From: Planctomycetota bacterium
Lineage (GTDB): Bacteria; Planctomycetota; Phycisphaerae; Phycisphaerales; SM1A02
Direction: 5' to 3'
Assembly: GCA_003671075.1 (NCBI GenBank)
Contig: QWPT01000007.1
Coordinates: 15,600-69,557, forward strand
Length of the DNA stretch: 53,958 nt
Part shown: in pieces, positions 13,217-39,038 of the stretch
Layout: each line of letters begins with the position of its first letter
Numbering within the stretch: the stretch's first letter is position 1
Notes under the pieces: model-generated
The model's input: only the letters and a program-made list of their open reading frames with translations
Told to the model about the DNA's origin: nothing
Database searches by the model: none
Made by a program: the position numbers and the translations under genes

Positions 13217-13280
13217 GGGGCGGCGATCTTACGGCAAACCGACGGTTGCAGAGTCAGCGCAACGCGAGGACGATGGTGCC

Positions 13281-14489
13281 ATGGGCCCGACCAACCGACC
13301 TTTGCGAGAGACCCCGCGCTTTGTGGTCGGCACGATGACGGGCACCAGCATCGACGGTGACCTCGATGCCGCACTCATCGAAATCCGCGGCGAGGCGCTC
13401 GATATGAACGCCAAGATCGTTGCGACCGGATCTTGGCCGCTCGGCGCAGTCGCGGCTGATCTTCGCCGCGTCGCCGCGCAAGAGCCTCTGACCGCAGGCG
13501 AATTCGCCCGTATCGCCCGTGCATTTGGCGAAATCCACGCCGACGCCATCGCGCTGCTGTGCGAAGGTGCAGGCGTACAGCCCGACCTCGTGGTGTTGCA
13601 CGGTCAAACCGTCTTCCACGCTCCGCCGCTCACCTGGCAACTGCTTGACCCGTGGCCAGTCGCGTTACGGATGAAGTGTCGCGTGCGCTACGACCTTCGC
13701 AGCGCGAACCTGGTGAGCGGCGGGCAAGGCGCGCCAATCACACCGATCGCCGACTACATCCTTTTCGCCAGCAATCGCGACCCGAAAGTTGTGATGAACC
13801 TCGGCGGCTTCATCAATGTGACGCTGCTGCCAACGCGCGGGCAAGGCATCTCGGCGATCCGCGGCTTTGATGTCTGCGCGTGCAATCATTTGCTCGACCG
13901 CGTCGCCCGCACGCGTCTGGGATCCGCATTCGATCGGGACGGCGAAGCAGCAACGCGCGGCAACAGCGATGTCGCGATTGCCCAACGCATCGCGCAAGCC
14001 ATCGCGCCGACGCACGCGCCCGGTGCCGCGCGGCGCTCGCTGGGAACCGGCGACGAGGCGGCGCGACTCGTCGAACTTACTGCGGCGCTCTCTCCGCAGG
14101 ATGCCTGTAGCACCATCGTCGAGGCGATCGCCGACGCAACCATCCGCACGCTTCGCGCGGAGCTCTCGGCGCCCGGCACCCTGCAAATCACGGCATCCTC
14201 GCACGAACCATCCACGCCGATCCCCCACACGCTGCTCGCAGGAGGATCGGCTCGGAATCGCGCGTTGCACGCAGCGCTCGCCCGTCGGTCGGGCGCAATC
14301 GTGCAAACGACCGACGAATGGAACGGCGTTCCCGTTGGAATGCGCGAAGCTGTGGAAATGGCGATTTTGGGCGCGTTGGCCGACGATGGCGTGCGCTATT
14401 CGTTGGCGCGAGTGACGGGCATCGCCTCGTTGATTCCCGAGTCGGCTGTGCTCGAAGCCCCGATTCTCGCAGAAAGAACGCAGGTCTGA
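13281..14489 (+). CDS. anmK: Anhydro-N-acetylmuramic acid kinase
   Basis: 402 aa. Phosphorylates and opens 1,6-anhydro-MurNAc during recycling of cell-wall muropeptides. The start MGPTNRPLRETPRFVVGTMTGTSIDG puts the phosphate-binding GTMTGTSIDGDLDAAL near the N-terminus, where GLMSGTSLDG is usual. Other family blocks are VVLHGQTVFHAPP, GQGAPITPIADYILF and MNLGGFINVTLL, and the C-terminal LLAGGSARNRAL. The frame is open further upstream, but that part is antisense to uxs. Together with uppP elsewhere in the window it indicates peptidoglycan metabolism. Confidence 0.9.
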   Translation: MGPTNRPLRETPRFVVGTMTGTSIDGDLDAALIEIRGEALDMNAKIVATGSWPLGAVAADLRRVAAQEPLTAGEFARIARAFGEIHADAIALLCEGAGVQPDLVVLHGQTVFHAPPLTWQLLDPWPVALRMKCRVRYDLRSANLVSGGQGAPITPIADYILFASNRDPKVVMNLGGFINVTLLPTRGQGISAIRGFDVCACNHLLDRVARTRLGSAFDRDGEAATRGNSDVAIAQRIAQAIAPTHAPGAARRSLGTGDEAARLVELTAALSPQDACSTIVEAIADATIRTLRAELSAPGTLQITASSHEPSTPIPHTLLAGGSARNRALHAALARRSGAIVQTTDEWNGVPVGMREAVEMAILGALADDGVRYSLARVTGIASLIPESAVLEAPILAERTQV

Positions 14490-14497
14490 ACAAAGTC

Positions 14498-14514
14498 TTC
14501 ACCAATCCTTGACA
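14498..14514 (+). promoter_or_regulatory. Candidate Pho box upstream of phoB
   Basis: TTCACC-AATCC-TTGACA, two hexamers at 11-bp spacing, lies 32 bp before phoB. The same arrangement occurs before pstS. The second hexamer would also serve as a -35 element. Confidence 0.45.
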
Positions 14515-14546
14515 GCGGAGGGGGCGCGCGCTCTACCGTACCTCCC

Positions 14547-15269
14547 ATGTCCAATGCGAAGGCACTAGTGCTCATTGTCGAAGACGAGCCCGAGATCGCG
14601 GAACTCATTGAGTTCCACGCCGAGCGTGCGGGCATGCGCGCTCGCAAGGTCCACAGCGGCCGCATCGCGCTTGATGTGATCAAGCGCGAGAAACCCGACC
14701 TCATCGTGCTCGATCTCATGCTGCCGGACATCGATGGCCTCGAGGTTTGCCGACGGCTGAAGCAGTCCGATGACACTCGGATGATTCCGATCGTCATGGT
14801 GACGGCCAAGGGCGAGGAAGCTGACATTGTTGCGGGCATCGAATTAGGCGCCGATGACTATGTCACCAAGCCCTTCAGCCCGAGCGTGCTCATGGCCCGA
14901 CTTCGCAATGTTCTGCGCCGAAATGGCGTCGCCGACGAGCCTTCGCCGACGAGTGACCGCATGGTGCTTCTTGAAAGCAAGCTCGTCATCGACATCGATC
15001 GCCACGAGATCCTCTGCGATGCCAAGAAGGTCGACCTGACATTGACCGAGTTTGGAATCCTCCATTACCTCGCCGGTCGTCCTGGCTTCGTGCGAACCCG
15101 CGACCAAATCATCAGCGCGGTCCATGGAAAGAGCACCGTACTTTCCAGCCGCACCGTCGATGTCCACATCACTGCGCTGCGCCGAAAGCTCGGCACGCTT
15201 GCCGATTGCGTCGAGACAGTGCGCGGCGTTGGATATCGCTTCTGCGAAGGTGCAAACGAAGAAGATTGA
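14547..15269 (+). CDS. phoB: Phosphate response regulator PhoB (OmpR family)
   Basis: 240 aa. The receiver domain (residues 1-125) has the acidic pair in VEDEP, the phosphorylated Asp in DLIVLDLMLPDIDGLEVC, the Thr in VMVTAKGEE and the Lys in YVTKPFSP. The C-terminal winged helix (residues 145-235) is of the OmpR/PhoB type (LTLTEFGILHYLAGRPGFV, SSRTVDVHITALRRKLG). It heads the phosphate cluster with phoR 79 bp downstream. The neighbours fix it as PhoB rather than another OmpR-type regulator. Confidence 0.93.
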   Translation: MSNAKALVLIVEDEPEIAELIEFHAERAGMRARKVHSGRIALDVIKREKPDLIVLDLMLPDIDGLEVCRRLKQSDDTRMIPIVMVTAKGEEADIVAGIELGADDYVTKPFSPSVLMARLRNVLRRNGVADEPSPTSDRMVLLESKLVIDIDRHEILCDAKKVDLTLTEFGILHYLAGRPGFVRTRDQIISAVHGKSTVLSSRTVDVHITALRRKLGTLADCVETVRGVGYRFCEGANEED

Positions 15270-15348
15270 TCCGCGCGAACGCCACAGACCTCGACGCGAT
15301 TGATCGGCTGCTTCCACAGCGCAAGCACGCTGAAATGTACACTTCGGG

Positions 15349-16713
15349 ATGATGATCGCACTTTCATCGGCCATCGGCCAAACATCCCAAGCGCTCTCCG
15401 ACGGCGGCTGGATCGCGGCTGGGGTTGTCGCGGCCGCATGGATCGGCACCTCGGCGATGCGCCGTCGCAGCCACCTTCGGCTTGAGAAGGCGCTGCTCGA
15501 CGACAACACCGCCGACGCCACCGGCCTCGGTGAGGAAACTTCGTTTCCGCTGATCGATTCGCTTGCGAGCGTTGCGATCCGCCGCATCCGCATCGAACGC
15601 CAACGCCAGTCGCTCGCGCAAGAACGCCTTGGCGAAATCGAGCGGATTCTCCGCGCAACTCCGATTGCAGTCATCGCGCTTGATCACTTGCAGCGCGTTC
15701 TTTCGGCCAATCCCGCCGCTGAGCGCCTGCTCGGCTTCGACGAAACTTCCGCGCGCGGGCGGCTGCTGCAGGAGGCCATTCGCCAACCTGGACTCAACCG
15801 CATGATCAGCACCGCGCTCGCCAATAACGGGCGGTTCGATGGCGAGCTCCATCTCGAACTCGATATGCCGCTGGAAGTACAGGTTTGCTGCGAGTCGCTT
15901 CACCACGAGGACCATCCCGCGGGGTTGGTGATCAGCCTCGTTGATGTGACGCGCATGCGCCGACTCGAATCGATGCGCAGCGAGTTTGCCGCAAATGTGT
16001 CGCACGAGCTGCGCACGCCGATCACAAACATCAAGGGATATGTCGAGACCCTGCTTCAGGTTGGGCTTGAAGATCCCGAGCGGATGCGCAGGTTTCTTGA
16101 GATCGTGCACCGCAATACGGTGCGGCTATCAGGAATCGTCGAGGACATTCTCACGCTCGCGTTTCTCGAGGAGCCCGAGGCGAAGCAAAGCCTTGCGCGG
16201 ACGTCGATTCGCGCAACCGAGATTGTGCAGCAGGTCGTGGAAGATCTCGGCTCTGCCGCCAATGCCAAATCGATTCGGGTTCAGATTTCCCCTGTTGGAA
16301 ACACGCGCGTCAGCGAAATCCTCATCCTCGCCAATCGATCTCTGGCCGAACAGGCCCTGGCCAACCTAGTCTCGAACGCGATCAAGTATTCAGCAGAGGG
16401 CACCGAGGTTGGGATCGAGATCTCCACCGAGGGGCCGCTCATCAGAATCGCCGTTGCCGATCAGGGCCCCGGCATTGCCGCGAAGCACCTTCCGCGAATC
16501 TTCGAGCGGTTCTACCGCGTCGACAAGGCGCGCGCGCGAACCCAAGGCGGCACTGGACTAGGACTCGCCATCGTCAAGCACATCGCATCTATCCATGGCG
16601 GCCAAGTCGAGGTCACAAGCCAGGTTTCGCAAGGCAGTCGCTTCAGTCTGTTGCTGCCCAAGGCAGCGGACGACTCGGGTGCCCACGCCGTTCCCGAAGT
16701 CAAAAGCCAGTGA
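15349..16713 (+). CDS. phoR: Phosphate sensor histidine kinase PhoR
   Basis: 454 aa. One N-terminal membrane helix (GGWIAAGVVAAAWIGTSAM), a PAS domain (residues about 90-190, ILRATPIAVIALDHLQRV), a HisKA dimerisation helix with the phospho-acceptor in VSHELRTPITNIKGYVETLL, and a HATPase domain (NLVSNAIKYSAEGTEV, DQGPGIAAKHLPRIFERFYRVD, GGTGLGLAIVKHIA). It partners PhoB. TACACT lies 5 nt before the first of two adjacent ATGs, so the transcript is probably leaderless. As in other PhoR proteins there is no large periplasmic sensor; the signal would come through PhoU/PstB. Confidence 0.92.
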   Translation: MMIALSSAIGQTSQALSDGGWIAAGVVAAAWIGTSAMRRRSHLRLEKALLDDNTADATGLGEETSFPLIDSLASVAIRRIRIERQRQSLAQERLGEIERILRATPIAVIALDHLQRVLSANPAAERLLGFDETSARGRLLQEAIRQPGLNRMISTALANNGRFDGELHLELDMPLEVQVCCESLHHEDHPAGLVISLVDVTRMRRLESMRSEFAANVSHELRTPITNIKGYVETLLQVGLEDPERMRRFLEIVHRNTVRLSGIVEDILTLAFLEEPEAKQSLARTSIRATEIVQQVVEDLGSAANAKSIRVQISPVGNTRVSEILILANRSLAEQALANLVSNAIKYSAEGTEVGIEISTEGPLIRIAVADQGPGIAAKHLPRIFERFYRVDKARARTQGGTGLGLAIVKHIASIHGGQVEVTSQVSQGSRFSLLLPKAADDSGAHAVPEVKSQ

Positions 16714-16736
16714 TTTACGCCTCCTTGAACCGTTTC

Positions 16737-16753
16737 TTTACCGAATCTTAACA
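16737..16753 (+). promoter_or_regulatory. Candidate Pho box upstream of pstS
   Basis: TTTACC-GAATC-TTAACA, again two hexamers at 11-bp spacing. It closely resembles the site before phoB and also the TTAACA-type PhoP boxes of Bacillus. It lies 82 bp before the pstS ATG. Confidence 0.5.
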
Positions 16754-16834
16754 TGCGTCCGCGACCCTTTCGCACTCGAAGAAACTCACAGTGTCTGGCC
16801 CGTCACCGCGCATATCACCGCTGAGAAATCATCT

Positions 16835-17842
16835 ATGAACACCATGATCAGACTCGCTTCCATCAGCCTCCTCGCCGCCGCGTCCGCTTTGATTGGCGCG
16901 ACCACCGATCAAGACGCCAAAGTTTCGTTGAGCACGCTCAAGGGCGCCATCAAGGTTGACGGTTCCTCCACGGTCTATCCGATCACCGAGGCCATCTCGG
17001 AAGAATTCAACAAGGTTGCGGCCAAGGTTCGGGTCACCGTCGGCATCTCGGGTACGGGCGGTGGATTCAAGCGCTTCTGTGCTGGAGAGATCGATGTCGC
17101 CGACGCTTCGCGCCCAATCAAGAAGGCTGAATTCGAGCTCGCGACCAAGGCAAGCGTCGAGTACATCGAGCTTCCCATCGCCTACGACGGTCTCACCATC
17201 GTCGTGCATCCGAAGAACACCTGGTGCAACTCTCTCACGCTCGAGCAAATCAAGCGGATCTATTCGGCCGCTGGCAGCGTGAAGACTTGGAAGGACATCA
17301 ATCCCGAGTGGCCCGACAAGGCGCTCAAGGTTTACTCGCCGGGAACCGACTCGGGAACATTCGACTACTTCAAAGAGACCACCGTCGGCAAAGACGGCTC
17401 TATCCGCAGCGATATGAGCGTTTCTGAAGACGACAATGTGCTCGTCCGCGGTGTCGCCGGAGACGAGGGCGCGATTGGCTTCTTCGGATGCGCGTACTAC
17501 TTTGAGAACAAGGACAAGGTGAAGGCCGTCCCCATCGATGCCGGCAAGGGCCCGATCGCCATCAGCGTCGAGTCCATCGAGTCGGGAGCCTACGCGCCCT
17601 TCAGCCGCCCTCTGTTTATCTACATCAACAAGAAGAGCGCCGAGCGTGCTGAAGTCCAGGCGTTTATTGACTTCTATCTGGCCAACGCTGGGAAGCTCGT
17701 CAGCGAGGTTGGATTTGTCAAGCTTCCCGACGCGATCTACGCCAAGGTGACGAAGAACTGGCTCGCACGCCGACCGGGAACTCAGTTCACCAAGCCGACC
17801 GGCGAGGCCGTCTCGGGATCGCTCGCCAATGTTTACGAGTGA
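16835..17842 (+). CDS. pstS: Phosphate ABC transporter, substrate-binding protein
   Basis: 335 aa. Captures phosphate outside the membrane for PstCAB. The start [22 protein letters not shown] gives a signal peptide. The first binding loop, [19 protein letters not shown], and the second, [27 protein letters not shown], are typical of the PstS family with [18 protein letters not shown] is the third phosphate contact region. It is followed by a hairpin and then pstC. The frame extends into phoR upstream, but only the chosen start gives an export signal. Confidence 0.94.
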
Positions 17843-17861
17843 ATGACGCTGGCAAACACAC

Positions 17862-17887
17862 ACAGCGGCGGCGAGAGCCGCCGCTGT
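17862..17887 (+). terminator. pstS-pstC intergenic hairpin
   Basis: An 11-bp perfect stem (ACAGCGGCGGC/GCCGCCGCTGT) with a GAGA tetraloop and no T run behind it. It lies 20 bp after pstS. It may attenuate transcription or protect the 3' end of the pstS mRNA, which would give more PstS than the membrane components. Confidence 0.6.
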
Positions 17888-17997
17888 ACCTTGAATCGGC
17901 GCACGGATCGTTCTGGAGCGTGCTCGGATGAGCCTTCGGGACGGCGTTGGCGGGTAGATCGCCCACCCAAGTACCTACCCGCCCGCGGAACCGCATC

Positions 17998-18954
17998 GTG
18001 ACCACCCTGCCCACAACCTCCACGCCGCGCGACCTCGACCAACTCGGTCGAACGAAGTCGGTCGCTGCGCGCGTGCTGCGCGAACGCTTGATCGTGGGCA
18101 CACTGGCGATCGCGGCTTGCTTCTCCATCTTGGTCACCTCGACGATCATCGCGGTGCTCGCCCAAGAGACTTGGGGATTCTTTCAGTTCCCCAATGTCAC
18201 CCTCGGCGATTTCTTCGGTGGGACCGAATGGAATCCGCTGCTCGGCGCCGAGAAACATTTCGGAATCTGGCCGCTGGTGAGCGGAACCCTGCTGGTCACC
18301 GTGATCGCCGCCACATTTGCCTTGCCCATTGGACTGGTGTGCGCGATCTACCTCAGCGAATACTCGTCGACGCGGGTGCGCGCGACCCTCAAGCCCGCGC
18401 TGGAAATCCTCGCGGGCGTGCCAACCGTCGTCTACGGATTCTTTGCACTCACCATCATCACGCCGGTGCTGCAGAAAGTCAGCCCCGCGTTCGGCAGTTA
18501 CAACGCGATGGCCGCTGGCCTGGCGACGGGCATCATGATTCTGCCGATCGTCTGCTCGATGTCCGAGGATTCGCTGCGCGCGGTGCCACGCAGTTTGCGC
18601 GACGGAGCGCTCGCCCTCGGTGGAACCAAGTTCGATGTGTCGGTGAAAGTGGTGGTGCCCGCAGCGCTCTCGGGAATCGTCGCGGCGTTCCTGTTGGCGA
18701 TCTCGCGTGCGATCGGCGAAACCATGATTGTTGCGCTTGCCGCTGGTGGTATCGCGCAAATCACCGCGAATCCAACGGCAGAAGTGCAGACGATGACCGC
18801 GTACATGGTGCAGATCTTTCTCGGAGACGCACCTGCCGTTGGCGTGGAGTACAAGTCGAGTTACGCGGTTGCATCCGTACTCTTCGTGATGACATTCGCG
18901 ATCACCATGATCGGCCAGTACATCTTGCGCCGATTTCGTGAGGAGTACGACTGA
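17998..18954 (+). CDS. pstC: Phosphate ABC transporter permease PstC
   Basis: 318 aa. Six membrane helices; the first is LIVGTLAIAACFSILVTSTIIAVLA. The permease core has LPIGLVCAIYLSEYSS, EILAGVPTVVYGFFAL and the EAA-type loop LPRSLRDGALALGGTKFDV. The start is taken as GTG at 17998, preceded by GGAA; a TTG 17 codons upstream is possible but adds no homologous sequence. Stop and the next start share one base (TGATG). Confidence 0.92.
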   Translation: MTTLPTTSTPRDLDQLGRTKSVAARVLRERLIVGTLAIAACFSILVTSTIIAVLAQETWGFFQFPNVTLGDFFGGTEWNPLLGAEKHFGIWPLVSGTLLVTVIAATFALPIGLVCAIYLSEYSSTRVRATLKPALEILAGVPTVVYGFFALTIITPVLQKVSPAFGSYNAMAAGLATGIMILPIVCSMSEDSLRAVPRSLRDGALALGGTKFDVSVKVVVPAALSGIVAAFLLAISRAIGETMIVALAAGGIAQITANPTAEVQTMTAYMVQIFLGDAPAVGVEYKSSYAVASVLFVMTFAITMIGQYILRRFREEYD

Positions 18955-19889
18955 TGGCGACTCCACGCTCCACCGCCTCGCGCATCTTCTCGAATCGCGC
19001 ATTCTTGCTGATCTGCCTGATGGCAACCAACATCGCGATGATCGTGTTGGCCGTGCTGCTGATCTCGATCTTCTGGCAGGGCTGGGGCACGCTGTCGTGG
19101 AAATTCATCACCAGCTTCGCATCGCGCAAGCCATCTGAGGCGGGGATTCTTGCGCCATTGATGGGCTCGGTCTGGGTCTGCGCCATTTGCGGGCTGGTGG
19201 CGTTGCCACTGGGAATCGGTACCGCGATCTTCCTCGAGGAGTTTGCGAAACGCACCCGCTTCACTCGCATCATTCAGACCAACATCATGAATCTCGCGGG
19301 CGTTCCGTCGATCGTTTACGGCATCCTGGGATTGACCGCGTTTGCCCGAATGTTCGGCGCCTTCGGAACAACCTCCGAAGACGCCATGAACTTCGGCGAC
19401 AGTGAAAGCCTGCTGTTTCTCCGCATTCCCTTCGGCTCGACCGTCTTGGCTGGCGGGCTCACGCTCATGCTGGTGATTCTTCCCGTCGTGATCATTTCGA
19501 CGCAGGAGGCGTTGCGATCGGTGCCGAGTTCGCTGCGATCAGGCGCGTTTGCGCTGGGCGCGACTCGTTGGCAGACGGTGTGGGCGATCACGCTGCCCGC
19601 AGCGATCCCGGGCATCATGACTGGTGCGATTCTTTCCATGAGCCGCGCCATCGGCGAGAGCGCACCGCTCCTGGTCATCGGTGGACTTCTGTTGGTGTTC
19701 AATACGCCGCAGAACCTCATGAGCGACTTCGCGATTCTTCCGCTGCAAATCTATAACTGGGCCGGTCGCCCGCAGGACAGCTTCCACGCTCTTGCGGCGA
19801 GCGCGATCATCGTGCAGCTTGCGGTGCTGCTCGTCTTCAATGGATTTGCCGTGTTTGTTCGGCAGAAACTGCAGAAGCCACTTCAGTGA
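18954..19889 (+). CDS. pstA: Phosphate ABC transporter permease PstA
   Basis: 311 aa. Six membrane helices starting at [23 protein letters not shown]. Family blocks are [31 protein letters not shown] and the EAA loop [20 protein letters not shown]. Pairs with PstC to form the channel. Its ATG overlaps the pstC stop, and its own stop overlaps the GTG of pstB (GTGA), so the three are translationally coupled. An internal region, [20 protein letters not shown], forms a longer periplasmic loop than usual. Confidence 0.92.
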
Positions 19890-27527: not shown

Positions 27528-29975
<2,448 letters not shown>

Positions 29976-30010
29976 TTATATCGAAGCGGGACTTTTTCTC
30001 CTGCCCAGTG

Positions 30011-30039
30011 TTCCAATGAAACCCTTGGCTCTGTATCAT
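30011..30039 (+). promoter_or_regulatory. Candidate promoter ahead of the structured leader RNA
   Basis: TTCCAA (30011-30016), a 17-bp spacer and TATCAT (30034-30039). Transcription would begin about 7-8 nt later, just before the first stem of the structured RNA. Confidence 0.4.
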
Positions 30040-30050
30040 TTGGGCTCGCA

Positions 30051-30131
30051 TGAAGAGTTTGATCGTCCTCAGAGGGTAAGCCCTCGCGATCAACAGCAAC
30101 CGAGCGGGTGACCGCCACGGTGCTGAGGAAC
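30051..30131 (+). ncRNA. Structured leader RNA resembling a SAM-clan riboswitch
   Basis: TTGATCG (30059-30065) pairs with CGATCAA (30087-30093) around a GAGGG-TAAG-CCCTC hairpin. A second arm runs CAGCA...CCG...GCGG-GTGA-CCGC...CGG-TGCTG (30094-30125) with a GNRA loop. TCCTCA (30066-30071) is complementary to TGAGGA (30124-30129), a possible pseudoknot. The order GCAACC...GGTGCT followed by AGGAAC recalls the SAM-I/SAM-IV core (GGCAACC...GGUGCUAA.UCC). Against this, no clear closing P1 helix is seen and no methionine gene follows. The structure is well supported; the ligand is a guess. Confidence 0.45.
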
Positions 30132-30387
30132 ATCGAAAAACCGCGGCGTTCGCGGCAATTTCGGTGATGCGGTGCAGGACGGTATCTACCGTCTCTTCAT
30201 CAAACTGGCGTTCGTCACGGACGCTGGAACATTCCAATCTCTCCTGCTCGGGGGTGAAAAGACGGTTTGAAAAAACCTTGCGATCGCGGCTGTCGGTCTT
30301 TGCTGCTTGATCTCGGCGCACTTGCGTGCACTGAACTCAACAGCAAGTTCTACGACTGGCGCGTCGCAAATCGAAAGGACAGATTGC

Positions 30388-31419
30388 ATGCGATCGAGCC
30401 GCGTAAGCCAAACTCTTCGAACACTTGTTGAAATCGGCAGGCCTGCATTTGTGTGGGGCGCGCCGGGCGTTGGGAAGAGCGCCGTCGTCCAGTCTCTTGC
30501 CAAGAGTCTTGACCGGCCCGTCATCGACATCCGCGCACCACTGCTTGATCCAACCGATCTCCGCGGCCTGCCTGCGGTGGTGGATGGACGAGCGGTCTGG
30601 GCACCGCCGTCGTTCCTTCCCGTCAAGACCGACAAGCCGGGCATCCTCTTCTTTGACGAGCTCAACGCTGCTCCCCCGCTGGTGCAAGCGAGCCTTTATC
30701 AGCTCGTGCTCGACCGCCGCGTGGGCGAGTATGTGCTGCCCGATGGTTGGCAGATCATCGCGGCGGGCAACCGAGCCGAGGACAGGTCGGTCGTGTTCCG
30801 CATGCCCGCCGCGCTGGCAAATCGCTTCATTCACCTCGAATTTGAGCCGCATTTCGACGACTGGTCTGAATGGGCGGTCACGGCCGGAGTTTCGCCAGTG
30901 GTGATCGCGTTCATTGCGGTGCGGCGCGAATTACTCGCGCCAAAGCCGGGGGAAGCGGATGGAATCGCCTTCGCCTCGCCCCGTTCGTGGCACATGCTGA
31001 GCGATGCGTATCTCGCGCTCGGAACCGAAGCCGGAGCGCTCGAGGTGTATCAGGGCTGCGTCGGCAAGGGAGCGGCGATCGAGTTTCTCGAGCATGCGAA
31101 GAAGTCGCTCTCGATCGAGGTCATCGAGCGGATCATCGGGCGGCCAGACGATGCGGTGTTGCCGACGAATGCTGGCGACCTGTGGGTGCTGGTGAAGCAC
31201 ATCGCGCAGCGCGTCAGGGAGCCGAAAGTCACGGCGGCGCTTGGTTCACTGCTCGGGAGGCTCGGGGCTGAATGGGCGGTGCGGCTTGCGCGTGACATTC
31301 TGCGCGTTTCGCCTGCGCTCGCGTTCAATCCCGCCGTCGCGGCATTTGCGAAGCGCAACGCAGATGTCCTTGTGCCCAAGCGTGCAGAGAAATCCGGTTG
31401 CGCTGAGGGGGTTTCGTGA
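30388..31419 (+). CDS. MoxR-type AAA+ ATPase of the retron operon
   Basis: 343 aa. MoxR ATPases usually act with a VWA protein to remodel or activate a client. Walker A is GAPGVGKS (residues 24-31), Walker B ILFFDELNAAPP, sensor 1 in IIAAGNRAED and the arginine region in ALANRFIHLEF. The C-terminal half is helical. AAAGGAC lies 8 nt before the ATG. The stop overlaps the GTG start of the VWA gene (GTGA), so the two are coupled. Its place immediately ahead of a retron suggests it is part of the effector or its control. A stand-alone MoxR/VWA role is the alternative. Confidence 0.85.
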   Translation: MRSSRVSQTLRTLVEIGRPAFVWGAPGVGKSAVVQSLAKSLDRPVIDIRAPLLDPTDLRGLPAVVDGRAVWAPPSFLPVKTDKPGILFFDELNAAPPLVQASLYQLVLDRRVGEYVLPDGWQIIAAGNRAEDRSVVFRMPAALANRFIHLEFEPHFDDWSEWAVTAGVSPVVIAFIAVRRELLAPKPGEADGIAFASPRSWHMLSDAYLALGTEAGALEVYQGCVGKGAAIEFLEHAKKSLSIEVIERIIGRPDDAVLPTNAGDLWVLVKHIAQRVREPKVTAALGSLLGRLGAEWAVRLARDILRVSPALAFNPAVAAFAKRNADVLVPKRAEKSGCAEGVS

Positions 31420-32753
31420 ATTGCATGACCTCAAGCGACCAGGGGCTCGTGCGCATCGACGATCCCGAACTTGCGCGGGATATCACGCGCGCGCGAATGC
31501 AGCTGCTTCTTGAACAGCCATCGCTTGCCGCCGCTGTGATGCGCATTCCCGTTGTGCAAGTCCACAGCAACTTGCTCGCGGAAGGCATCGGTATCGCGCC
31601 GGGGGCGATCATCGTGTCGCAAGCGCTTCGGCTCAAGGCGCAGCAACTCGTCGCCTACGCCTATGGCCACAACATCATTCACGCGTTGTTCGAACACCTC
31701 GAGCGGCGAGGCCGTCGGCAAGAGAAGGAATGGAACATCGCGATCGATATCGCGACGGCCGCGCTCTATGACCCGATTCTCGATCCGTCGACGCAAAATC
31801 AGAGTTCGGAATACGACATTCGCCCGCCTCGATCAACGAAGTTCGACGCCCTAGTCCAGAGCCTTGGCCATCTGAGTTGCGAGCAAATTTATCAAAGACT
31901 GATCGAGGAACAACTCAACAAACCCGCTGCGTCGACGAGCTATTCAGAAGTCACTGAACACGCACTGCCGGCCGCGGTCAACTTGCAAACGAAAGAGTGT
32001 CCGCTGCGATTCGACGGCGATCCAACCGGATGTGGCCATCGCGCCGACCTCGATGCCTTCATAAGTCCGCAAAACCAAATCACCGGCGACGATCACGCAT
32101 TGCTGCTGCAGGAAGTCTCCGAGGCGCTGCAAAGTGAAGGTCGCCTGCCAGGCAAGGTGAGTGGGCAGTGGTCGGAACTTGCCAAGCGCAATCGAACCCG
32201 TCGCGTGCCCTGGGAGCGTGTGTTCATCGAGCGTCTCGACGGGCTGGTTCCCATGGACTACCAGTCGTATCCGTTTGCCAAGCGGCATCTTTGGCGCGGG
32301 GTTTTCTTGCCCTCCTGCGCGCGAACGGGCGTCGGGCGAATCCTCTTTGCAATCGATACCTCGGGCTCGATGTCCTTGGCCATACTCGGACAGGTCGTCG
32401 ACCAAATCGGTCAACTTCGCCAATGCACGCACTGCTCGATCACGATCGCGCATTTCGATACCACGGTTCTCCGAGTTCAAGATTACGACACCTTTGATGA
32501 TCCGATCGACCGTGGATCGCTTGAGATGCCTGGGCGCGGCGGCACTGACTTGCGCGCACCGTTCGGGCTGCTTGATCAGCGGATGTACAACGGTGAACTC
32601 TTCGCGGGAATCGTGATAGCAACCGATGGGTACGGTCCGCTTCCAAGCAAATCATCGCAAGTGCCCGCGATTTGGCTCGTCCCTGGCGCCGTTGCCAACA
32701 CGTTTAACCCCCCGTTCGGCTCTGTGATTCGCTGCGAGGCGGATTCATGTTGA
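31416..32753 (+). CDS. VWA-domain protein with a degenerate metallopeptidase-like N-terminus (DUF2201-like)
   Basis: 445 aa from a GTG start that overlaps the ATPase stop. The N-terminal part resembles the DUF2201 putative metallopeptidase domain. Where HExxH is expected the sequence is GHNIIHALFEH (residues about 84-94), so the catalytic glutamate is replaced by Asn; LERRGRRQEKEWNIAIDIAT follows as in the family. The C-terminal VWA domain has an intact MIDAS: FAIDTSGSMS, GRGGTDL and ATDGYG. A middle segment has a Cys/His set (CPLRFDGDPTGCGHRAD). It is the usual partner of a MoxR ATPase, and its gene ends 31 bp before the a1 repeat of the retron RNA. Confidence 0.8.
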   Translation: MNCMTSSDQGLVRIDDPELARDITRARMQLLLEQPSLAAAVMRIPVVQVHSNLLAEGIGIAPGAIIVSQALRLKAQQLVAYAYGHNIIHALFEHLERRGRRQEKEWNIAIDIATAALYDPILDPSTQNQSSEYDIRPPRSTKFDALVQSLGHLSCEQIYQRLIEEQLNKPAASTSYSEVTEHALPAAVNLQTKECPLRFDGDPTGCGHRADLDAFISPQNQITGDDHALLLQEVSEALQSEGRLPGKVSGQWSELAKRNRTRRVPWERVFIERLDGLVPMDYQSYPFAKRHLWRGVFLPSCARTGVGRILFAIDTSGSMSLAILGQVVDQIGQLRQCTHCSITIAHFDTTVLRVQDYDTFDDPIDRGSLEMPGRGGTDLRAPFGLLDQRMYNGELFAGIVIATDGYGPLPSKSSQVPAIWLVPGAVANTFNPPFGSVIRCEADSC

Positions 32754-32784
32754 TTTCCATTTCCTCTCCAGTCGGCGCGCATTC

Positions 32785-32980
32785 GGATTGGTGCTTTCAG
32801 GACATCGTTTGTCCTGGTGTTTCGCCAGGCGTGAGTCGCGACGTTCATCGCATCAGCTGCGATGACAACGCCGCGACTGCCCGGTTGCTCAGTGCAGTGG
32901 CTCCTCTCAACCGCGCAGACGCGCCGTTGTCACCGCATCTGATGTTTGCAGTTCGTTCAGGAGCCTGAAAGCACCAATCC
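32785..32980 (+). ncRNA. Putative retron msr-msd element
   Basis: 196 nt between the VWA and RT genes. Ends: GGATTGGTGCTTTCAGG (a1, 32785-32801) and its perfect 17-nt complement (a2, 32964-32980). Inside, CCTGGTG-TTT-CGCCAGG (32813-32829) is a 7-bp hairpin with a UUU loop, as in msr RNAs such as Ec86. Next is a 37-bp gapless stem, 32851-32887 with 32908-32944 (32 of 37 pairs complementary), with a 20-nt loop, as expected for msd. A second small hairpin, TCATCGCA/TGCGATGA (32845-32865), competes with the foot of the long stem. The RT gene starts 57 nt after a2. The branching G, probably at the a1 end, cannot be fixed by eye. Confidence 0.85.
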
Positions 32981-33025
32981 CCATGCATGCTCGTGGTTGT
33001 GGAAGTCGCCAAATGGCGCACACAG

Positions 33026-33032
33026 AAGGAGG
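33026..33032 (+). promoter_or_regulatory. Perfect Shine-Dalgarno sequence that fixes the RT start
   Basis: AAGGAGG stands 5 nt before ATG 33038. Earlier in-frame ATG 32987 lies next to the a2 repeat without any ribosome binding site. Such a strong site is rare in this window. Confidence 0.8.
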
Positions 33033-33037
33033 CCAAT

Positions 33038-36000
33038 ATGCTCAACGGATATCGTCGACCAAATTCAATGGCTTCGCAACAAGGAGAGCAGTGCATTCAA
33101 TCTGTACCTTTTTGCTCCACCTTGCCGAACATCACTTCCGGCTTGAAGCACTGGGAAATGGATTGCGTCCGCCCTTCTACCTACTTCAAATCCATCGCGC
33201 TCCAACTTTGGACCGAACTGCAGATCGACAAAAATTTCGCGAAGGAATTGCAGAGAAATCATCGCAGCGCCAACGGACTTCAATGTGTTCGCTACCTACA
33301 CGCGACCGCCAAATCGGATGCCGACCGCGCGCTCACTTGGTTGTTTGCAACGCATTTGCTACCGAGCTGGAAACTCCCGCAGCCAATGCTTCCCATGTTG
33401 CTCGCACAATTGCAGCGCGAGTACAAAGACGTCGCCCTCGTGCAAGCGATCATGCGCATGGCCGATCAATCGGTGAAGGCGGGCGAGGCCGGTCGTGCGT
33501 TTGATCATGAGTTGGATCATGAGTTTGATCATGCACCCGAAGCTCTCGTGTTCGTCGATTCGGCTGATGCTCACCTGTTCTTGGAAGCAGCCAACAAAAA
33601 ATGCTCAGCCGATGCTCCCCTCTGGATGTGTTTGAGCACCTGCGTGCGACCCGACCGGAATGCCGCAAATGGTGCATGTGCATGCCCCTGCCACGCCCTT
33701 GAACCGTTGTCGCAGTTACGCCGCTTGTATTCGTTGCTTGCCCGCGCGCACCGGCGCGTGCCGCAGGGGAAAAATGCGTTCGAACTTGAGACTTTGTTGA
33801 GCGTCACGGATCTAAGTACACCAAACCCGACGGCGCACGGGCCAGTGGATTTGCGTCAGACTTCTCACGTTGCCCACAATCGCATCGATCGCTTCGGCCT
33901 TGATTTCATCATCAATCAGCTCCCATTCGGGTCGGTGATCGCCGGACCGCTGCGCAGAGCCATGCTCGATACGGTCTTTCTTGGTGAGTTTGCACCGTTC
34001 CTCGATTCGATCGCGAACGAGGCTCCGCCGGCAGGCAGGATGCGGCAACTGACCGATCGGCAAATCTCACATGCGCATTCGTTACGCGTCAGACATCGCA
34101 ACGAGTGGGATTCGGCCATAGGCGCAACGCTCGACCTTGTCACGGCGCGATCAACGGACGCCATTCCTGCTGATTCCAACGCCATTCAAGAGGACTGCTG
34201 GAACCATCTACGGATCGTCGACGCGATATTGCACGAGGCAAATCCTCGTCGCCGAATCGGCGAGTATCTGCGACGCATCGTCGCGCGCGAGGGGCCCGCG
34301 TTGCAACCTGACGCAGCAACGAAATGCCAGCCGACAGAGCCGCTCCTCGAGGCGATGGAACTCATCGGCAGAGCACTGATACTGCGCGAACTCCGCTCGA
34401 CAGTCGGCGGCCCGAAACCACTGACGAGCACATCGACCATGGGCTTGCTTGGACGATTCGCCATGCCGAGCGAATCCATCAGCAACTCGCTCAAACTGAA
34501 TCTCCCAGACCCACCGATCGCCGCTACCCCAAGCGCGCCTGAAGGTCCTTGGTATCGCCGCCAAGCCAATGATCCAAAGCACACGAACTTGGATTCGATC
34601 AAGCACTGCCTCAGGTGTCTCTATGGATGCCGTAGTGACGCGATCATGCTTTCGATTGCCAGCGTTTTTGATGGCCCCACGAAAGCGGTCGCGATGGCCA
34701 CCAGTGGCAACTGGCTCAAGCCTGGCGCGCTGGCTCGTTGGATGAGGACTTCATCGATTCCGTCAAGCAACCGTTTCGACTTCGTGCGCCAACTGACCCT
34801 GACCCATGGCGACAAGTTGGACAAGCTGCTTCCGATGTTCGCTCGGGAAAGAACATGGGACGACCACAGGCCATTATTCAAAGGTCAACAGCGTCCAACC
34901 AACGCAACCGAACAATGGCTGGTTCAATCGATTGAACTTCCGCCAAAGTCCCTAGCGTTGCTCTCGCCTCGCGCACGCAAGGCCTATCTCGCCAATTTCA
35001 TTCGGCGATATGGCGACCTCGCAACCAAATTCCTTGCGCCGAATTTTCAGAGCAGGATTCAGAGAGAGAAGAATGGTCAGTTGGATTTCGCGGGCAATGC
35101 GTTGGGGACGGTTGCGTGCGCGGTCAATGAATTGCCGTGGCGAACGGTGCGCGCTGCACTCCCTCTGCATGTCATCGAAACCGTGATTTCAGAGTCCAAG
35201 TTTGGGGCAGCGCGAGTGCCCGCGTCAGTTCCCCCATCAGTCCCCCCATCAGTTCCACTGGCTGATGTCAAAAAGCTTTTTAGCTACCACGGAGAATCTG
35301 CGTTGGTGGTTTGGGCGCGCGCATGGCACAGAATCGTGAGCAGCGCTGCGACAACTCAGTCCGGAAAGGCGCGCGCAACCAAAGCCTTGATTCGCAATAT
35401 CTCCAAGGGCAAGTTCAATCTACAGTGCTTCTGCGAATTAGCGTCGCAGCCACCGAGCGCATCGAAATCCAAGAAACGATTTGTGTCCGATTTTGCGACG
35501 ACGATCCTTGCGATTCCCGCCATCGTTCAGGCTCTGGTTTCGCAAAGTAAGAGCCTTGATCAAACCTGGTTTCTGCTTCAGAATTCGCGCGGACACGCGC
35601 TTGCGGATTTGCCGCGGAGCCAACTTGAGAATTTCGTGCTCTCTATTGATTCTGATCTCCGCGATATCTCAGATGGCCCACCAGGAGATTCGCCGGCGGA
35701 TGCCAAAAAATTGAATCGACCTTACCGAAAGGCTTTGCGAAGTCCGTTGAATTTCGTGGCGCAGTTTGTTGATGTGATTGCGCGCAGGCTCTGCACCGTT
35801 TCGGCATCGGACGATGCAGCCATTACTGCGCAGAAAATCGATCTCGCGCGGCTGCTGCTCCGCGTGATCGCGACCCGGGAGTTGCGCGCGCCCGCAAGCG
35901 TCGAGACCATCGAGTTGTTGACACAACGGCTTTCGACGCGGCGGGATGCGCAACTCACACGCAAGGCCGCGCAAGGCAGGTGCAAGCCGCTCAAAGAGCC

Positions 36001-36970
36001 TGCCGAAGAAACCACCGTGCTCGCCGTGGCGCTTGAACTCGCAAAGCAAGGTCTCGCCGATGAGTTTCAGCAGGTGCTGATGATCACACGCACCGCCTCG
36101 CTCGACGATCGCTATCGCGCACACCGAATCCCAAAGAAACGCGGGGGAATGCGGGAGATCCACCAACCTGACGCGGACCTCATGAGACTTCAGCGAAAGG
36201 TGCTTGCCCGCTTCCTTGCCCGCGCGCCGATCTCGGAGCACGCCCACGGTTTCGTTCGTGGGCGCGGGATTCTCACCAACGCGCTCGAGCACACCGGCAA
36301 ACGCGTTGTACTCAATGTCGATATCCGCAACTTCTTTGGATCGCTTCCGATCGAACACATTCGTGCGGCGCTGAACCAAACGCGCCTACGTTCGCAAGTC
36401 CCCAAAACGGAAAATCAAGGCTGGGCCGTGCGCGATAGAGAGAGCCTGTCCCCCGCTGCGCTTGATGTGCTGGTGAAGATCGTGACCCGAGCCGGCTCAC
36501 TTCCGCAAGGTGCTCCGACGAGTCCGGCGATCACCAACATCGCGCTTCGGCACACCGATGGAATCCTGGCGAAGGCCTGTCGCCGAATCGGCGTTTCCTA
36601 CACGCGATATGCCGACGACCTGACATTCTCGGGAGCGGACGGACCAGTCCAGGGCATCGTTCCCTTTGTGCGTGAACTTCTCACGCGGATCGGGCTTGAG
36701 CTCCATCCCGACAAAACGCATGTGTATCGAAGTGGCCGCCAGCAGCTGGTCACGGGGCTGGTGGTGAATTCCTGGCCGAACCTGCCGCGACGCGACCGAC
36801 GCAGGATGCGTGCCGCAGCACATCGGCTTGGCACGACAGGAAAAGCGCTGCGTTGGAAGGGTTCGCCGATGAGCCTCGCGGGCTTTCAGGGGCGGCTCTC
36901 GCTCCTCAACATGGTTGATGAGTCGCGCGCGGATTCGCTGCGACTTCTCGCCAAGATGGAACCTCGATGA
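33038..36970 (+). CDS. Retron-type reverse transcriptase with a ~1000-residue N-terminal extension
   Basis: 1310 aa; retron RTs are usually 300-400. The RT domain covers residues 1020-1300: IPKKRGGMREIHQP; NAxxH as TNALEH (N1081); motif A VLNVDIRNFFGS (D1095); SLPQGAPTSPAITNIAL; the catalytic YADD (Y1191) in RYADDLTFSG; and VTGLVVN (V1238) of the retron thumb. Residues 1-1000 are mostly helical and unrecognised. A Cys cluster lies at 189-217 (CSADAPLWMCLSTC...ACACPCH) and two 12-bp in-frame repeats lie at 33501-33536 and 35226-35261. A HEAT/ARM-like scaffold is possible. It should copy the msd RNA upstream. The stop overlaps the next ATG. Base composition looks less GC-rich in the N-terminal part than in neighbouring genes. 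Confidence 0.9.
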   Translation: MLNGYRRPNSMASQQGEQCIQSVPFCSTLPNITSGLKHWEMDCVRPSTYFKSIALQLWTELQIDKNFAKELQRNHRSANGLQCVRYLHATAKSDADRALTWLFATHLLPSWKLPQPMLPMLLAQLQREYKDVALVQAIMRMADQSVKAGEAGRAFDHELDHEFDHAPEALVFVDSADAHLFLEAANKKCSADAPLWMCLSTCVRPDRNAANGACACPCHALEPLSQLRRLYSLLARAHRRVPQGKNAFELETLLSVTDLSTPNPTAHGPVDLRQTSHVAHNRIDRFGLDFIINQLPFGSVIAGPLRRAMLDTVFLGEFAPFLDSIANEAPPAGRMRQLTDRQISHAHSLRVRHRNEWDSAIGATLDLVTARSTDAIPADSNAIQEDCWNHLRIVDAILHEANPRRRIGEYLRRIVAREGPALQPDAATKCQPTEPLLEAMELIGRALILRELRSTVGGPKPLTSTSTMGLLGRFAMPSESISNSLKLNLPDPPIAATPSAPEGPWYRRQANDPKHTNLDSIKHCLRCLYGCRSDAIMLSIASVFDGPTKAVAMATSGNWLKPGALARWMRTSSIPSSNRFDFVRQLTLTHGDKLDKLLPMFARERTWDDHRPLFKGQQRPTNATEQWLVQSIELPPKSLALLSPRARKAYLANFIRRYGDLATKFLAPNFQSRIQREKNGQLDFAGNALGTVACAVNELPWRTVRAALPLHVIETVISESKFGAARVPASVPPSVPPSVPLADVKKLFSYHGESALVVWARAWHRIVSSAATTQSGKARATKALIRNISKGKFNLQCFCELASQPPSASKSKKRFVSDFATTILAIPAIVQALVSQSKSLDQTWFLLQNSRGHALADLPRSQLENFVLSIDSDLRDISDGPPGDSPADAKKLNRPYRKALRSPLNFVAQFVDVIARRLCTVSASDDAAITAQKIDLARLLLRVIATRELRAPASVETIELLTQRLSTRRDAQLTRKAAQGRCKPLKEPAEETTVLAVALELAKQGLADEFQQVLMITRTASLDDRYRAHRIPKKRGGMREIHQPDADLMRLQRKVLARFLARAPISEHAHGFVRGRGILTNALEHTGKRVVLNVDIRNFFGSLPIEHIRAALNQTRLRSQVPKTENQGWAVRDRESLSPAALDVLVKIVTRAGSLPQGAPTSPAITNIALRHTDGILAKACRRIGVSYTRYADDLTFSGADGPVQGIVPFVRELLTRIGLELHPDKTHVYRSGRQQLVTGLVVNSWPNLPRRDRRRMRAAAHRLGTTGKALRWKGSPMSLAGFQGRLSLLNMVDESRADSLRLLAKMEPR
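33501..33536 (+). repeat. Three 12-bp in-frame repeats in the RT gene
   Basis: Units ttgatcatgagt, tggatcatgagt and ttgatcatgcac encode FDHE, LDHE and FDHA. They share the gatcatg core with intergenic arrays elsewhere in the window. Confidence 0.85.
35226..35261 (+). repeat. Three 12-bp in-frame Ser-Val-Pro-Pro repeats in the RT gene
   Basis: The unit tcagttccccca and two variants encode SVPP, SVPP and SVPL, a flexible linker in the N-terminal extension (residues about 730-742). Confidence 0.8.
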
Positions 36971-38091
36971 CAATCACCCTGAACGCAGACTTTGACGGCA
37001 GTTTTTCGATGTACCGCACGATCATCGAGCGGTCGCTTCACTCGGCGATGCTGCCCTACCTGGCATTTGCGGCCGCGTATCGCGAGCACTCGGTTGCGGC
37101 TGCAGCGCGCGCGCATCTGGACGGGCTGATCGCGCTTGATCCGGCGGCGCAGAAACTCGTTCCCCTGATCACCCACGCGCTCACGCACGAGCGCGGAACC
37201 ATCCTCGAACCCTTCTGCTGCCCCGAGCCACTGCGCGCTCCATTGGCCGCCGCGATGGCGTTGCTTGCACGCGGCCGATTTCCCAAGGATGCCGCGCATC
37301 GATCGACGCTGTTGGTGAATCAATGCACGGGGTCGGCGTGGACAGGCGTCGAGTGCGATGCGGCGGGCGCGCGCGGCTTTCGCGTGCGTGACTTCTGTTC
37401 GCGGGTCAAGGCCGTCCAACCGCCGGTGCGCGCAGGAGGGCGTCCGTACGAGCCCGCCATTCCTCTCGCCTTTGATCTTGATCGCGCAGCGCGGGAGTCA
37501 CCACGCGCAGCTCTCGCACACATTGCGCTGGACGATGTCAATCCATCGCTCTCCATCGTTTTTGAAGCAGAGAGCATGCTGTACGGCGGAGAGAATTGTC
37601 GAGCTCGCGATGGCGCGCGGGCAAGTTGCGAATTGGCGTTCGAGGATCCTGGCATTCCTCTGCTCGACTTTGCAACCTCAGGCAAGCATGACTCCACCGG
37701 AAAGGGGATCGAGCTTGAAAAGGCTGTGTTTCGGCTGAATCCGACGCTCATGCTTCGCCTTGCGTCGATCGATGGACCAAAGCGCTTTGTCGCGCGCCGT
37801 GTTACGCGGGTGGACTCGCTCGTACATCAGCAAATTGTGGTCGGCGAGTTCGACGCCAACCGCGTCAGAGCGGTCCATGCTCCGTCCATAGCTTGGTCAG
37901 CGCCCTCGCACGACAGGATTCCGGCGGTGCAGCTGCATGAGGATCCCAACGCGCCCGGCTCGCTGCGCAGCCTGATCAATCTGCTGCTCGCTTCGGATTA
38001 CCAAGTGCCTGCCACCCACCCCACCCACGCAGAATTGCAGCACGACGAAATCTGGACAGCGCCGATGGTCGCCGCCATGACGCGCGGATGA
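36967..38091 (+). CDS. Unknown protein, last gene of the retron operon
   Basis: 374 aa. The ATG overlaps the RT stop (ATGA), so it is made with the RT. No signal peptide, membrane helix or motif that I recognise. The N-terminal 110 residues are helical and Ala-rich (SMLPYLAFAAAYREHS...AAARAHLDGLIAL). The rest is mixed with scattered Cys (PFCCPEP, NQCTGSAWTGVECD) and a block DDVNPSLSIVFEAESMLYGG. The last codons (MTRG stop) are the first unit of an 11-bp repeat array. By position it is the best candidate for a dedicated accessory or effector; no activity can be assigned. Confidence 0.75.
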   Translation: MTITLNADFDGSFSMYRTIIERSLHSAMLPYLAFAAAYREHSVAAAARAHLDGLIALDPAAQKLVPLITHALTHERGTILEPFCCPEPLRAPLAAAMALLARGRFPKDAAHRSTLLVNQCTGSAWTGVECDAAGARGFRVRDFCSRVKAVQPPVRAGGRPYEPAIPLAFDLDRAARESPRAALAHIALDDVNPSLSIVFEAESMLYGGENCRARDGARASCELAFEDPGIPLLDFATSGKHDSTGKGIELEKAVFRLNPTLMLRLASIDGPKRFVARRVTRVDSLVHQQIVVGEFDANRVRAVHAPSIAWSAPSHDRIPAVQLHEDPNAPGSLRSLINLLLASDYQVPATHPTHAELQHDEIWTAPMVAAMTRG

Positions 38092-38182
38092 CGCGCGGAT
38101 GACTCGCGGATCATGGGCGGATCATGGGCGGATCATGGGCGGATCATGAGCGGATCATGGGCGGATCATGGGCGGATCATGG
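38077..38182. repeat. 11-bp tandem array overlapping the end of the retron operon
   Basis: About nine to ten units. The first three read atgac(g/t)cgcgg and contain the stop codon of orf374; the next seven read atcatg(g/a)gcgg. The array separates the retron operon from the isomerase-like gene on the other strand. Confidence 0.9.
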
Positions 38183-38207
38183 GCGCACGCTCACCGCCGC
38201 GCAGCCC

Positions 38208-39038
38208 CTACTGAATTCCCCGCGCCTTCAGCATCTCCACCGCCGCGCGAATGTCGCCGACGCGATCCTCGCCGGCCTCGCGCTCGATCACGAGCCTCAC
38301 CGGCGCGGCGACCGCTCCGAGTGCGGCGAGGAACGCGTTCCAGTCGACCGCGCCCGTGCCCGCGCGCACCTCGCTGCCCCATGTGCCCGCGACCTTGGTC
38401 GCGATCGCGTCCTTGATGTGCACCTGCGCAATGCGCGGCGCGAGCACGCGCACGGCGGCAACGGGATCGCCCATCGCGTACAGAATCATGTTTGCGGGAT
38501 CGAAGTTCACGCCGATGGTTGGATCGCCCAGCGCGTCAAGTGCGCGGGCAAGCGTGTCGGCTGACTCCTGTCCGGTTTCGAAGGCGATGCGGGTGCCGTG
38601 CGCGGCAAAGATCGCGGCGAGCTCGCGCAGACGACCGAAAAGTTTCTCGCGCTCGGCGCCCGGCTCGTGCGGGATGAAGCCCGCGTGAAGCGTGACGAGC
38701 GTGATGCGTTGAGCACCTGCGATTTCGGCAACTTGCGCCGCGCGCGCGCGGGTGGCGGTCCATGTCGCGTCGGGCACCACGCCGCCGGTGACGCGAATAC
38801 TGTCGAGCGTCGAGTAGTCCTCGCCGACAGTCTCAAACATGCCGCTGGCGACCTGAATGCCCGCGCGGGCAAGCGCCGCAAAGACCCCACCCCACACCTC
38901 GGGCTTCACGGCGATCGGCGACAGCGCAAGTTGCACCGCGCCCGCTCCCGTGGCCTGGAGGCGCGTTACCAATTGTTCAGGATTTTCAGCCTGAAGACTC
39001 CAGGAGCAGACGGCGAGAGGCGCTGGTGAAATTGGCAT
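38208..39038 (-). CDS. Sugar phosphate isomerase/epimerase (TIM barrel, AP-endonuclease-2 family)
   Basis: 276 aa. A TIM-barrel protein of the hydroxypyruvate isomerase/inosose dehydratase group. Typical barrel strands: AVCSWSLQAENPEQLV; GIQVASGMF; ITLVTLHAGF, where GFIP replaces the usual metal-site Glu/His region; RIAFETGQESADTL; IGVNFDPANMILYA; and VHIKDAIA, with the metal-binding His. RLVIEREAGE carries the last Glu. The substrate is not identifiable. TAGAGT lies 6 nt before the ATG. Confidence 0.82.
   Translation of the reverse strand: MPISPAPLAVCSWSLQAENPEQLVTRLQATGAGAVQLALSPIAVKPEVWGGVFAALARAGIQVASGMFETVGEDYSTLDSIRVTGGVVPDATWTATRARAAQVAEIAGAQRITLVTLHAGFIPHEPGAEREKLFGRLRELAAIFAAHGTRIAFETGQESADTLARALDALGDPTIGVNFDPANMILYAMGDPVAAVRVLAPRIAQVHIKDAIATKVAGTWGSEVRAGTGAVDWNAFLAALGAVAAPVRLVIEREAGEDRVGDIRAAVEMLKARGIQ

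Follow-up and report, generated by a model that had tools for sequence, protein, structure and literature searches.

A probable retron associated with a MoxR-VWA gene pair in a planctomycete and its relatives

Retrons are bacterial elements that make small DNA molecules, and their usual role is phage defence. A stretch of 53,958 nucleotides from a Planctomycetota bacterium (contig QWPT01000007.1, positions 15,600 to 69,557; hereafter, the window) raises the question of whether the interval 32785-32980, located after a VWA-like gene that ends at 32753 and ahead of a reverse transcriptase (RT) frame that opens at 32987, encodes the RNA of such an element, and whether the adjacent genes belong to the same system. 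The original prediction, made from the sequence alone, had described a complete msr-msd layout in this interval. We put the probability at about 90% that the locus is a retron, in which the interval is the msr-msd RNA and the RT, its N-terminal extension, a downstream protein denoted X and the MoxR-VWA pair make up a single operon-encoded system with it.

The interval has the anatomy of a retron RNA (Table 1). The complementarity of its ends, a1 and a2, is perfect over 17 bp, within the range of ~8-30 bases accepted for such ends; the covarying 7-bp hairpin with a 3-nt loop conforms to an msr of one to three hairpins of ~7-10 bp with loops of ~3-10 nt; and the msd is represented by one long stem of the kind expected (~10-50 bp, with mismatches). 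The repeats and the UUU-loop hairpin are located exactly where the original prediction had placed them. The long stem, then described as 37 bp without bulges, indeed has none, but it is interrupted by five single mismatches, so that 32 of the 37 pairs (86%) are Watson-Crick. The expectation that the whole layout would seldom arise by chance was borne out: the RNA at 32770-32995 folds at -113 kcal/mol (z -7.2 against dinucleotide shuffles), the part inside a1/a2 folded alone gives z -4.0, and none of the 200 dinucleotide shuffles of the 540-nt upstream region reaches a 17-bp a1/a2 pair beside a 7-bp hairpin with a G-NNN-C loop, the longest being 9 bp. A strict msr pattern, CTGGYGNNTCGCCAG, occurs once in the window, with 0.02 occurrences expected. 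Long inverted repeats are also typical of remnants of inverted mobile elements, an origin that the original prediction had itself raised for the stem. The interval has a single match in its 3.35-Mb genome assembly and hence is not a spread mobile-element repeat, and the same architecture, with different sequence, is found beside related RTs; we regard a mobile-element remnant as scarcely credible.

The window RT belongs to a clade of 17 loci that forms one branch in a tree of 90 RTs (support 100/92), from which 21 RT-hit loci were left out as duplicate fetches or as divergent or fragmentary RT hits. Upstream DNA is available for 13 of these loci (all except L018, L049, L128 and L129), and 11 of the 13 have a G-NNN-C hairpin with a stem of 7 bp or more, enclosed by an a1/a2 pair; for L019 and L127, the arms were set from separate searches. 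The hairpins include TCTGGTG-TTT-CGCCAGA (L048), CCTGGCG-CAT-CGCCAGG (L238), GCCGGCG-ATT-CGCCGGC (L116) and CGGGGTG-CTT-CGCCCCG (L019); the G-C-closed 3-nt loop was a search criterion and therefore is not independent evidence. Among 245 loci, the strict pattern is present in 11: ten clade loci or copies of them, plus a viral contig in which the match is a palindrome. It does not pick up L116, L019 and L127, the stems of which have other sequences. At L207, the strict pattern matches a short palindromic hairpin that precedes a 315-aa RT; this match was treated as chance.

Covariation in homologous loci had been named beforehand as a check on the msr-msd reading. Across ten of the 11 RNAs (L239 was left out as a near-copy of L238), 169 of the 170 cells formed by 10 a1/a2 and 7 hairpin pairs are paired (99.4%), and 13 of the 17 pairs have changed on both sides, a score that is reached in none of 500 shuffles and that partly reflects selection because the arms were chosen for pairing. 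When the partners are slid by 1 to 3 columns, pairing drops to 41-57%. Thus, a1/a2 and the msr hairpin are kept by compensatory changes which, together with the retron motifs of the RT (see below), uphold the original msr-msd assignment. In the single-locus control, none of the 200 shuffles matched the window, L056, L048, L238, L239 or L240, with the RT starts of the last three changed from those of the hairpin survey; six of the ten relatives' RNAs, folded singly, give z from -4.9 to -7.9.

The covariation score is confined to the closing stem and the hairpin, as the MAFFT alignment of the msd across all loci was unreliable. For the msd, the comparison comes from L070, where two tandem RNAs (1712-1908 and 2033-2229) precede one RT. 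The two copies differ at 20 of 79 msd stem-loop positions vs 8 of 118 elsewhere, and four pairs of the lower msd stem have changed on both sides, given the minimum free energy structure of one copy (copy B) minus small side helices. These observations bear on the view that the hairpins form a leader that controls the RT gene, as an attenuator or as a mask over the ribosome site, and are not a template. In L050, L070, L116, L238, L239 and L240, only ~7-8 nt separate the end of a2 from a possible RT start codon, so a regulatory effect is also possible; nevertheless, the closing stem, the 3-nt-loop hairpin and the long msd stem stand in retron order and are kept by covariation, and the L070 copies differ mostly in the msd stem-loop, so that a leader without template function appears very improbable.

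The RT itself points to a retron as well. The RVT_1 domain (PF00078; E 3.5e-19) occupies the C-terminal end of the protein (residues ~1036-1318) and is the sole RVT_1 match in the genome. The true start of the gene may be the in-frame ATG at 33038, which is preceded by AAGGAGG and so has a better ribosome site than the opening of the frame at 32987. According to PMC6868368, retron RTs are defined by NAxxH in region X and VTG in region Y; the window RT has NALEH, YADD and VTG. In an alignment of 13 of the 17 clade RTs (L049, L238, L239 and L240 were left out), the N, A and H of NAxxH, YADD, and the V and T of VTG are invariant, and the VTG glycine is present in 12, with N in L129. Among the PADLOC models, RT_XIII gives the best match to the window RT (4.3e-75), and all 13 clade RTs scanned match it.

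The very long N-terminal extension and the unusual partners would also fit a defence-associated RT (DRT/UG-type) or another non-retron RT, whose RNA would serve synthesis without 2'-5' priming, and two NCBIfam models of that kind, Drt2 (43.8 bits) and Drt3a (24.6 bits), match the protein, both far under the cut-off. The NCBIfam retron models score far higher, though also below their curated cut-offs (best 179.8 bits vs 235). Given these scores, the conservation of NAxxH and of the V and T of VTG in 13/13 RTs, and the presence of a1/a2, the msr hairpin and the msd stem, a non-retron RT is improbable.

In the retrons described in PMC6868368, the RT binds to a short msr stem capped by a three-base loop, starts synthesis at a guanosine located where a1 ends on its inner side, and uses the msd as its template; by analogy, the CAGG at the 3' end of a1 (32798-32801) probably holds the priming guanosine. 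YAGG precedes the hairpin in the other seven RNAs aligned (8 of the 11 RNAs), the window copy being in different columns; no YAGG-type motif was seen by eye in L019 and L127. The arrangement resembles the Ec86/Eco1 msr in the short stem with a 3-nt loop near a1 and differs from it in the 7-bp stem and in CAGG instead of the common TAGC. The Ec86/Eco1 msr sequence also differs from that of the window. According to PMC6868368, RT-Eco1 no longer binds once a core made up of an 8-bp stem and a three-base loop has been removed.

The original prediction had also called attention to a TCATCGCA/TGCGATGA hairpin that would compete with the foot of the long stem and might mark the msr/msd boundary. This hairpin exists (32845-32852 with 32858-32865, within a longer one of 32834-32852 with 32858-32878), overlaps the foot of the msd stem and is not expected by chance in the window (none of 2000 shuffles, with limits set by hand), but the homologues lend no support to a boundary. 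In an automatic test, P for an equivalent helix ranges from 0.02 to 0.7 across the ten other loci; the window itself gives 0.6, because the stem finder there merged the hairpin into the main stem. With a probability of 0 in the folded equilibrium ensemble and weak signals in relatives, its role as a conserved switch or as the msr/msd boundary is unsupported; the hairpin could form after the 3' arm has been copied.

Turning to the neighborhood (Table 1), MoxR genes are present in 13 of the 17 clade loci, the window MoxR being 36-57% identical to the others. The four MoxR-negative loci are on contigs that end inside the RT (L052) or at most 1.7 kb after it (L018, L128, L048); the upstream DNA of L052 (3.7 kb) and L048 (5.7 kb) contains no MoxR. 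The VWA partner is found in 11 of the 17 loci (partial in L240), with the contig of L129 ending inside MoxR and no VWA match in L019. MoxR-VWA pairs are common in bacteria, gene order varies, and L019 has the MoxR gene alone, so the pair could be an unrelated housekeeping unit that stands beside the retron by chance. However, among the non-clade records of the same search there is no match to the window MoxR or VWA at E 1e-3, the only clade loci without MoxR are those on truncated contigs, and the association spans planctomycetes and proteobacteria, so we consider a chance neighborhood unlikely, and prefer to treat the pair as part of the retron system.

Table 1. Features of the probable retron locus and of comparable repeats (window coordinates unless a locus is named).
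Feature	Position	Strand	Details
a1 arm of closing stem	32785-32801	+	GGATTGGTGCTTTCAGG; complements a2 perfectly over 17 bp
a2 arm of closing stem	32964-32980	+	CCTGAAAGCACCAATCC
msr hairpin, 7 bp, UUU loop	32813-32829	+	CCTGGTG-TTT-CGCCAGG
msd stem-loop, expected template of msDNA (inferred cDNA limits)	32851-32944	+	arms 32851-32887, 32908-32944
Alternative hairpin competing with 5' arm of msd stem	32834-32878	+	not clearly conserved
Retron-type RT with ~1000-aa N-terminal extension	32987-36970	+	1327 aa; PF00078, PADLOC RT_XIII, motifs
MoxR-like AAA+ ATPase	30307-31419	+	AAA_5 1.8e-09, AAA_3 3.6e-07
VWA-like/metallopeptidase-like partner (DUF2201)	31416-32753	+	MIDAS DTSGS kept; HNIIH
Protein X, 374 aa	36967-38091	+	start overlaps RT stop; no family match at E<=0.001
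Inverted repeats of another planctomycete RT clade	L022 8390-8450; L025 and L028 near RT start	reverse (L025, L028)	

In the Burkholderiales loci whose order is visible, the RNA and RT come first, followed by the methylase (in some), X, MoxR and VWA; in L116, MoxR and VWA are on the opposite strand. A methylase-like gene with an (S/G)PPY motif, identified by eye, follows the RT in 7 of the 17 loci (L129, L128, L048, L070, L056, L238 and L239); the one from L056, the only locus checked in Pfam, matches N6_N4_Mtase (7.2e-21). Such a gene is absent just after the RT in the window, and L052, whose contig ends in the RT, cannot show one. In the window 29800-38250, no sigma-70-type promoter consensus was found, and terminator-like sites are not in excess (10 vs 8.1 in shuffles).

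The position after the RT (X) is occupied by divergent proteins of ~310-420 aa with a mean column identity of 23%. The window X resembles the gene after the RT in L018 (7e-08), and a CARF model (E 0.019) is its sole PADLOC hit, a weak one; the X proteins of two relatives have no PADLOC match at E<=1. In Pfam, the X proteins of L050, L129 and L116 have no match at E<=1 and that of L127 has a weak DUF match only. For the X protein of L056, the AlphaFold model has a mean pLDDT (predicted local distance difference test) of 75, and the best structural matches are weak (Foldseek E 0.035, VIA Z 4.3), so we claim no fold for it. The N-terminal extension of the RT in L050 is predicted to be all-helical, with 44 helices (pLDDT 84, predicted template-modelling score 0.54), and its PDB matches are weak (best E 0.018) and mostly to solenoid proteins; judging from this model, it is probably a solenoid scaffold. 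The window extension has no match to that of L050, and a similar fold is only presumed for it. It has no PADLOC match at E<=10, and five relatives' extensions have none at E<=1.

The clade is patchily distributed. The window and L018, L019, L127, L128 and L129 come from one family (6/181 genomes), L048 from a metagenome-assembled genome labelled Akkermansia, and the remaining ten loci from proteobacteria, mostly Burkholderiales. At high scores, it is rare: 6/400 genomes of the window's order, all within its family; 4/399 in the family of genome G411 and 1/300 in its order (G411 itself); and 1/387 in the phylum of genome G417 (G417 itself). A full-protein search of contigs with the window RT recovered no relative, but an alignment-based search did. 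In viral contigs, the window RT domain has no match, and query A2 finds relatives with up to 40% identity among the best 80 of 371, none of which entered the RT tree or the clade count. Plasmids and phages contain partial RT matches only, below 60% identity.

Several other features were noticed in these sequences. In L019 (~13100-19750), a CRISPR-like repeat array begins in an open frame right after MoxR, and apparent type I cas genes, by eye from the open reading frame list, lie beyond it. In the window, a short tandem repeat, the frame of which reads MGGSWADHERIMGGSWADHGR, is located downstream of X (38124-38190), and the gene at 15349-16713 matches PADLOC PDC-M43B (3.6e-10) over its C-terminal part and possibly encodes an unrelated signalling protein. 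Another planctomycete RT clade (9 rows, support 100/100) carries perfect, closely spaced inverted repeats of 18 to 30 bp that lie at the RT start or immediately before it; those in L022, L025 and L028 are perhaps msd stems of another retron group.

Apart from the selection built into the covariation score and the sub-threshold NCBIfam scores, a number of observations weigh against the assignment of this locus to a retron with its own MoxR-VWA module. The multicopy single-stranded DNA (msDNA) made by retrons, a transcript and a phenotype are as yet unobserved here, and a scan of the window at Rfam gathering thresholds detected tRNA only and no retron family. CAGG is absent from the priming motifs listed in the accessible part of PMC6868368 (TAGC or variants). 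No msr hairpin could be recognised upstream of the RT in L051 and L052, over as much as 1200 nt, and the single-locus shuffle P is 0.03-0.15 for L050, L070, L116, L019 and L127, in the last two of which the fixed 40-nt window of this control removes all or most of a1. Six structure pairs are broken in one of the two L070 copies and a score as high as the observed one arises in 34 of 500 shuffles, so that this comparison alone is modest evidence. Among the partners, HExxH is kept in 9 of the 10 VWA proteins where the site was found, and the window protein, with HNIIH, has lost the glutamate, which makes peptidase activity unlikely; BLAST gives no significant match between the window X and the X proteins of the Burkholderiales loci; and the order in the window (MoxR, VWA, RNA, RT, X) is unlike that of the Burkholderiales loci.

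If the locus is a retron, the RT would bind the UUU hairpin and copy the msd into branched msDNA, with the complementary DNA (cDNA) expected to begin near 32963 and to extend down into the msd stem foot, and the msDNA would fold into a long DNA hairpin. The RT with its N-terminal extension, the RNA, X and MoxR-VWA would then form one system, in which the RT-msDNA complex would be the sensor and MoxR-VWA an ATP-driven switch that remodels this complex, or X, once the msDNA has been disturbed by a phage. That MoxR-VWA would act on an RT-msDNA-X complex is proposed by analogy with the MoxR-vWA pairs proposed as threshold switches in other conflict systems. The sequences show the anatomy, the covariation, the clade and the association of the genes; the msDNA, the priming site, the complex, the role in defence and the division into sensor and effector are deduced from them. 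Tentatively, and at less than even odds, we propose a scheme of this kind in which the RT-fused helical region is a scaffold, X an adaptor or effector, and the methylase of some members marks the msDNA hairpin, the loss or change of the mark being the trigger.

Among the known systems, the closest by RT are the type XIII retrons, given that RT_XIII is the best PADLOC model and that the msr-msd lies upstream of the RT. The partners of type XIII retrons are ARM-repeat and SWIM proteins, which are not recognised here, where MoxR, VWA and methylase-like partners are found instead; in PADLOC, the window VWA has no match at E<=10 and MoxR has only weak matches of other kinds. Because no type XIII partner is recognised, we do not file the locus as type XIII, although its RT is closest to RT_XIII; a diverged ARM fold is possible given the all-helical extension of L050. 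Most retrons known to date have a single effector or a fused domain as partner. Sixteen retron subtypes are distinguished by their effectors in PMC13405049, and a phage methylase triggers two other retrons according to PMC12548924.

The MoxR AAA+ ATPase with a VWA protein is shared with the MoxR-vWA ternary conflict systems (Kaur et al., 2020, PMC7159879), and the window pair displays AAA_5, DUF2201 and the DTSGS metal ion-dependent adhesion site (MIDAS). In that work, the pairs are proposed to be threshold switches of conflict systems and are accompanied by VMAP, iSTAND, FtsH or beta-propeller components, none of which is recognised here, where a retron RT and RNA are present instead; its main text mentions retrons once, as relatives of the RTs of diversity-generating retroelements (DGRs). 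The MoxR-associated DGRs (PMC10907252) likewise have an RT beside a MoxR ATPase and VWA proteins, but the DGR RT mutates target genes, and the word retron is absent from that text. The literature search retrieved no paper linking retrons with MoxR-VWA; because the main classification paper (Mestre 2020), where a prior mention is possible, was outside its reach, the novelty of this association is provisional.

If correct, a retron tied to MoxR-VWA would link msDNA sensing to ATP-driven remodelling, and a defined nucleic-acid trigger would make it possible to test the threshold role proposed for MoxR-vWA pairs. Where a methylase-like gene is present, it opens a direct test of msDNA marking, and the tandem RNAs of L070 are a natural swap experiment on the msd stem. 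Two defence traditions, the retrons and the MoxR-vWA systems, would thereby be joined.
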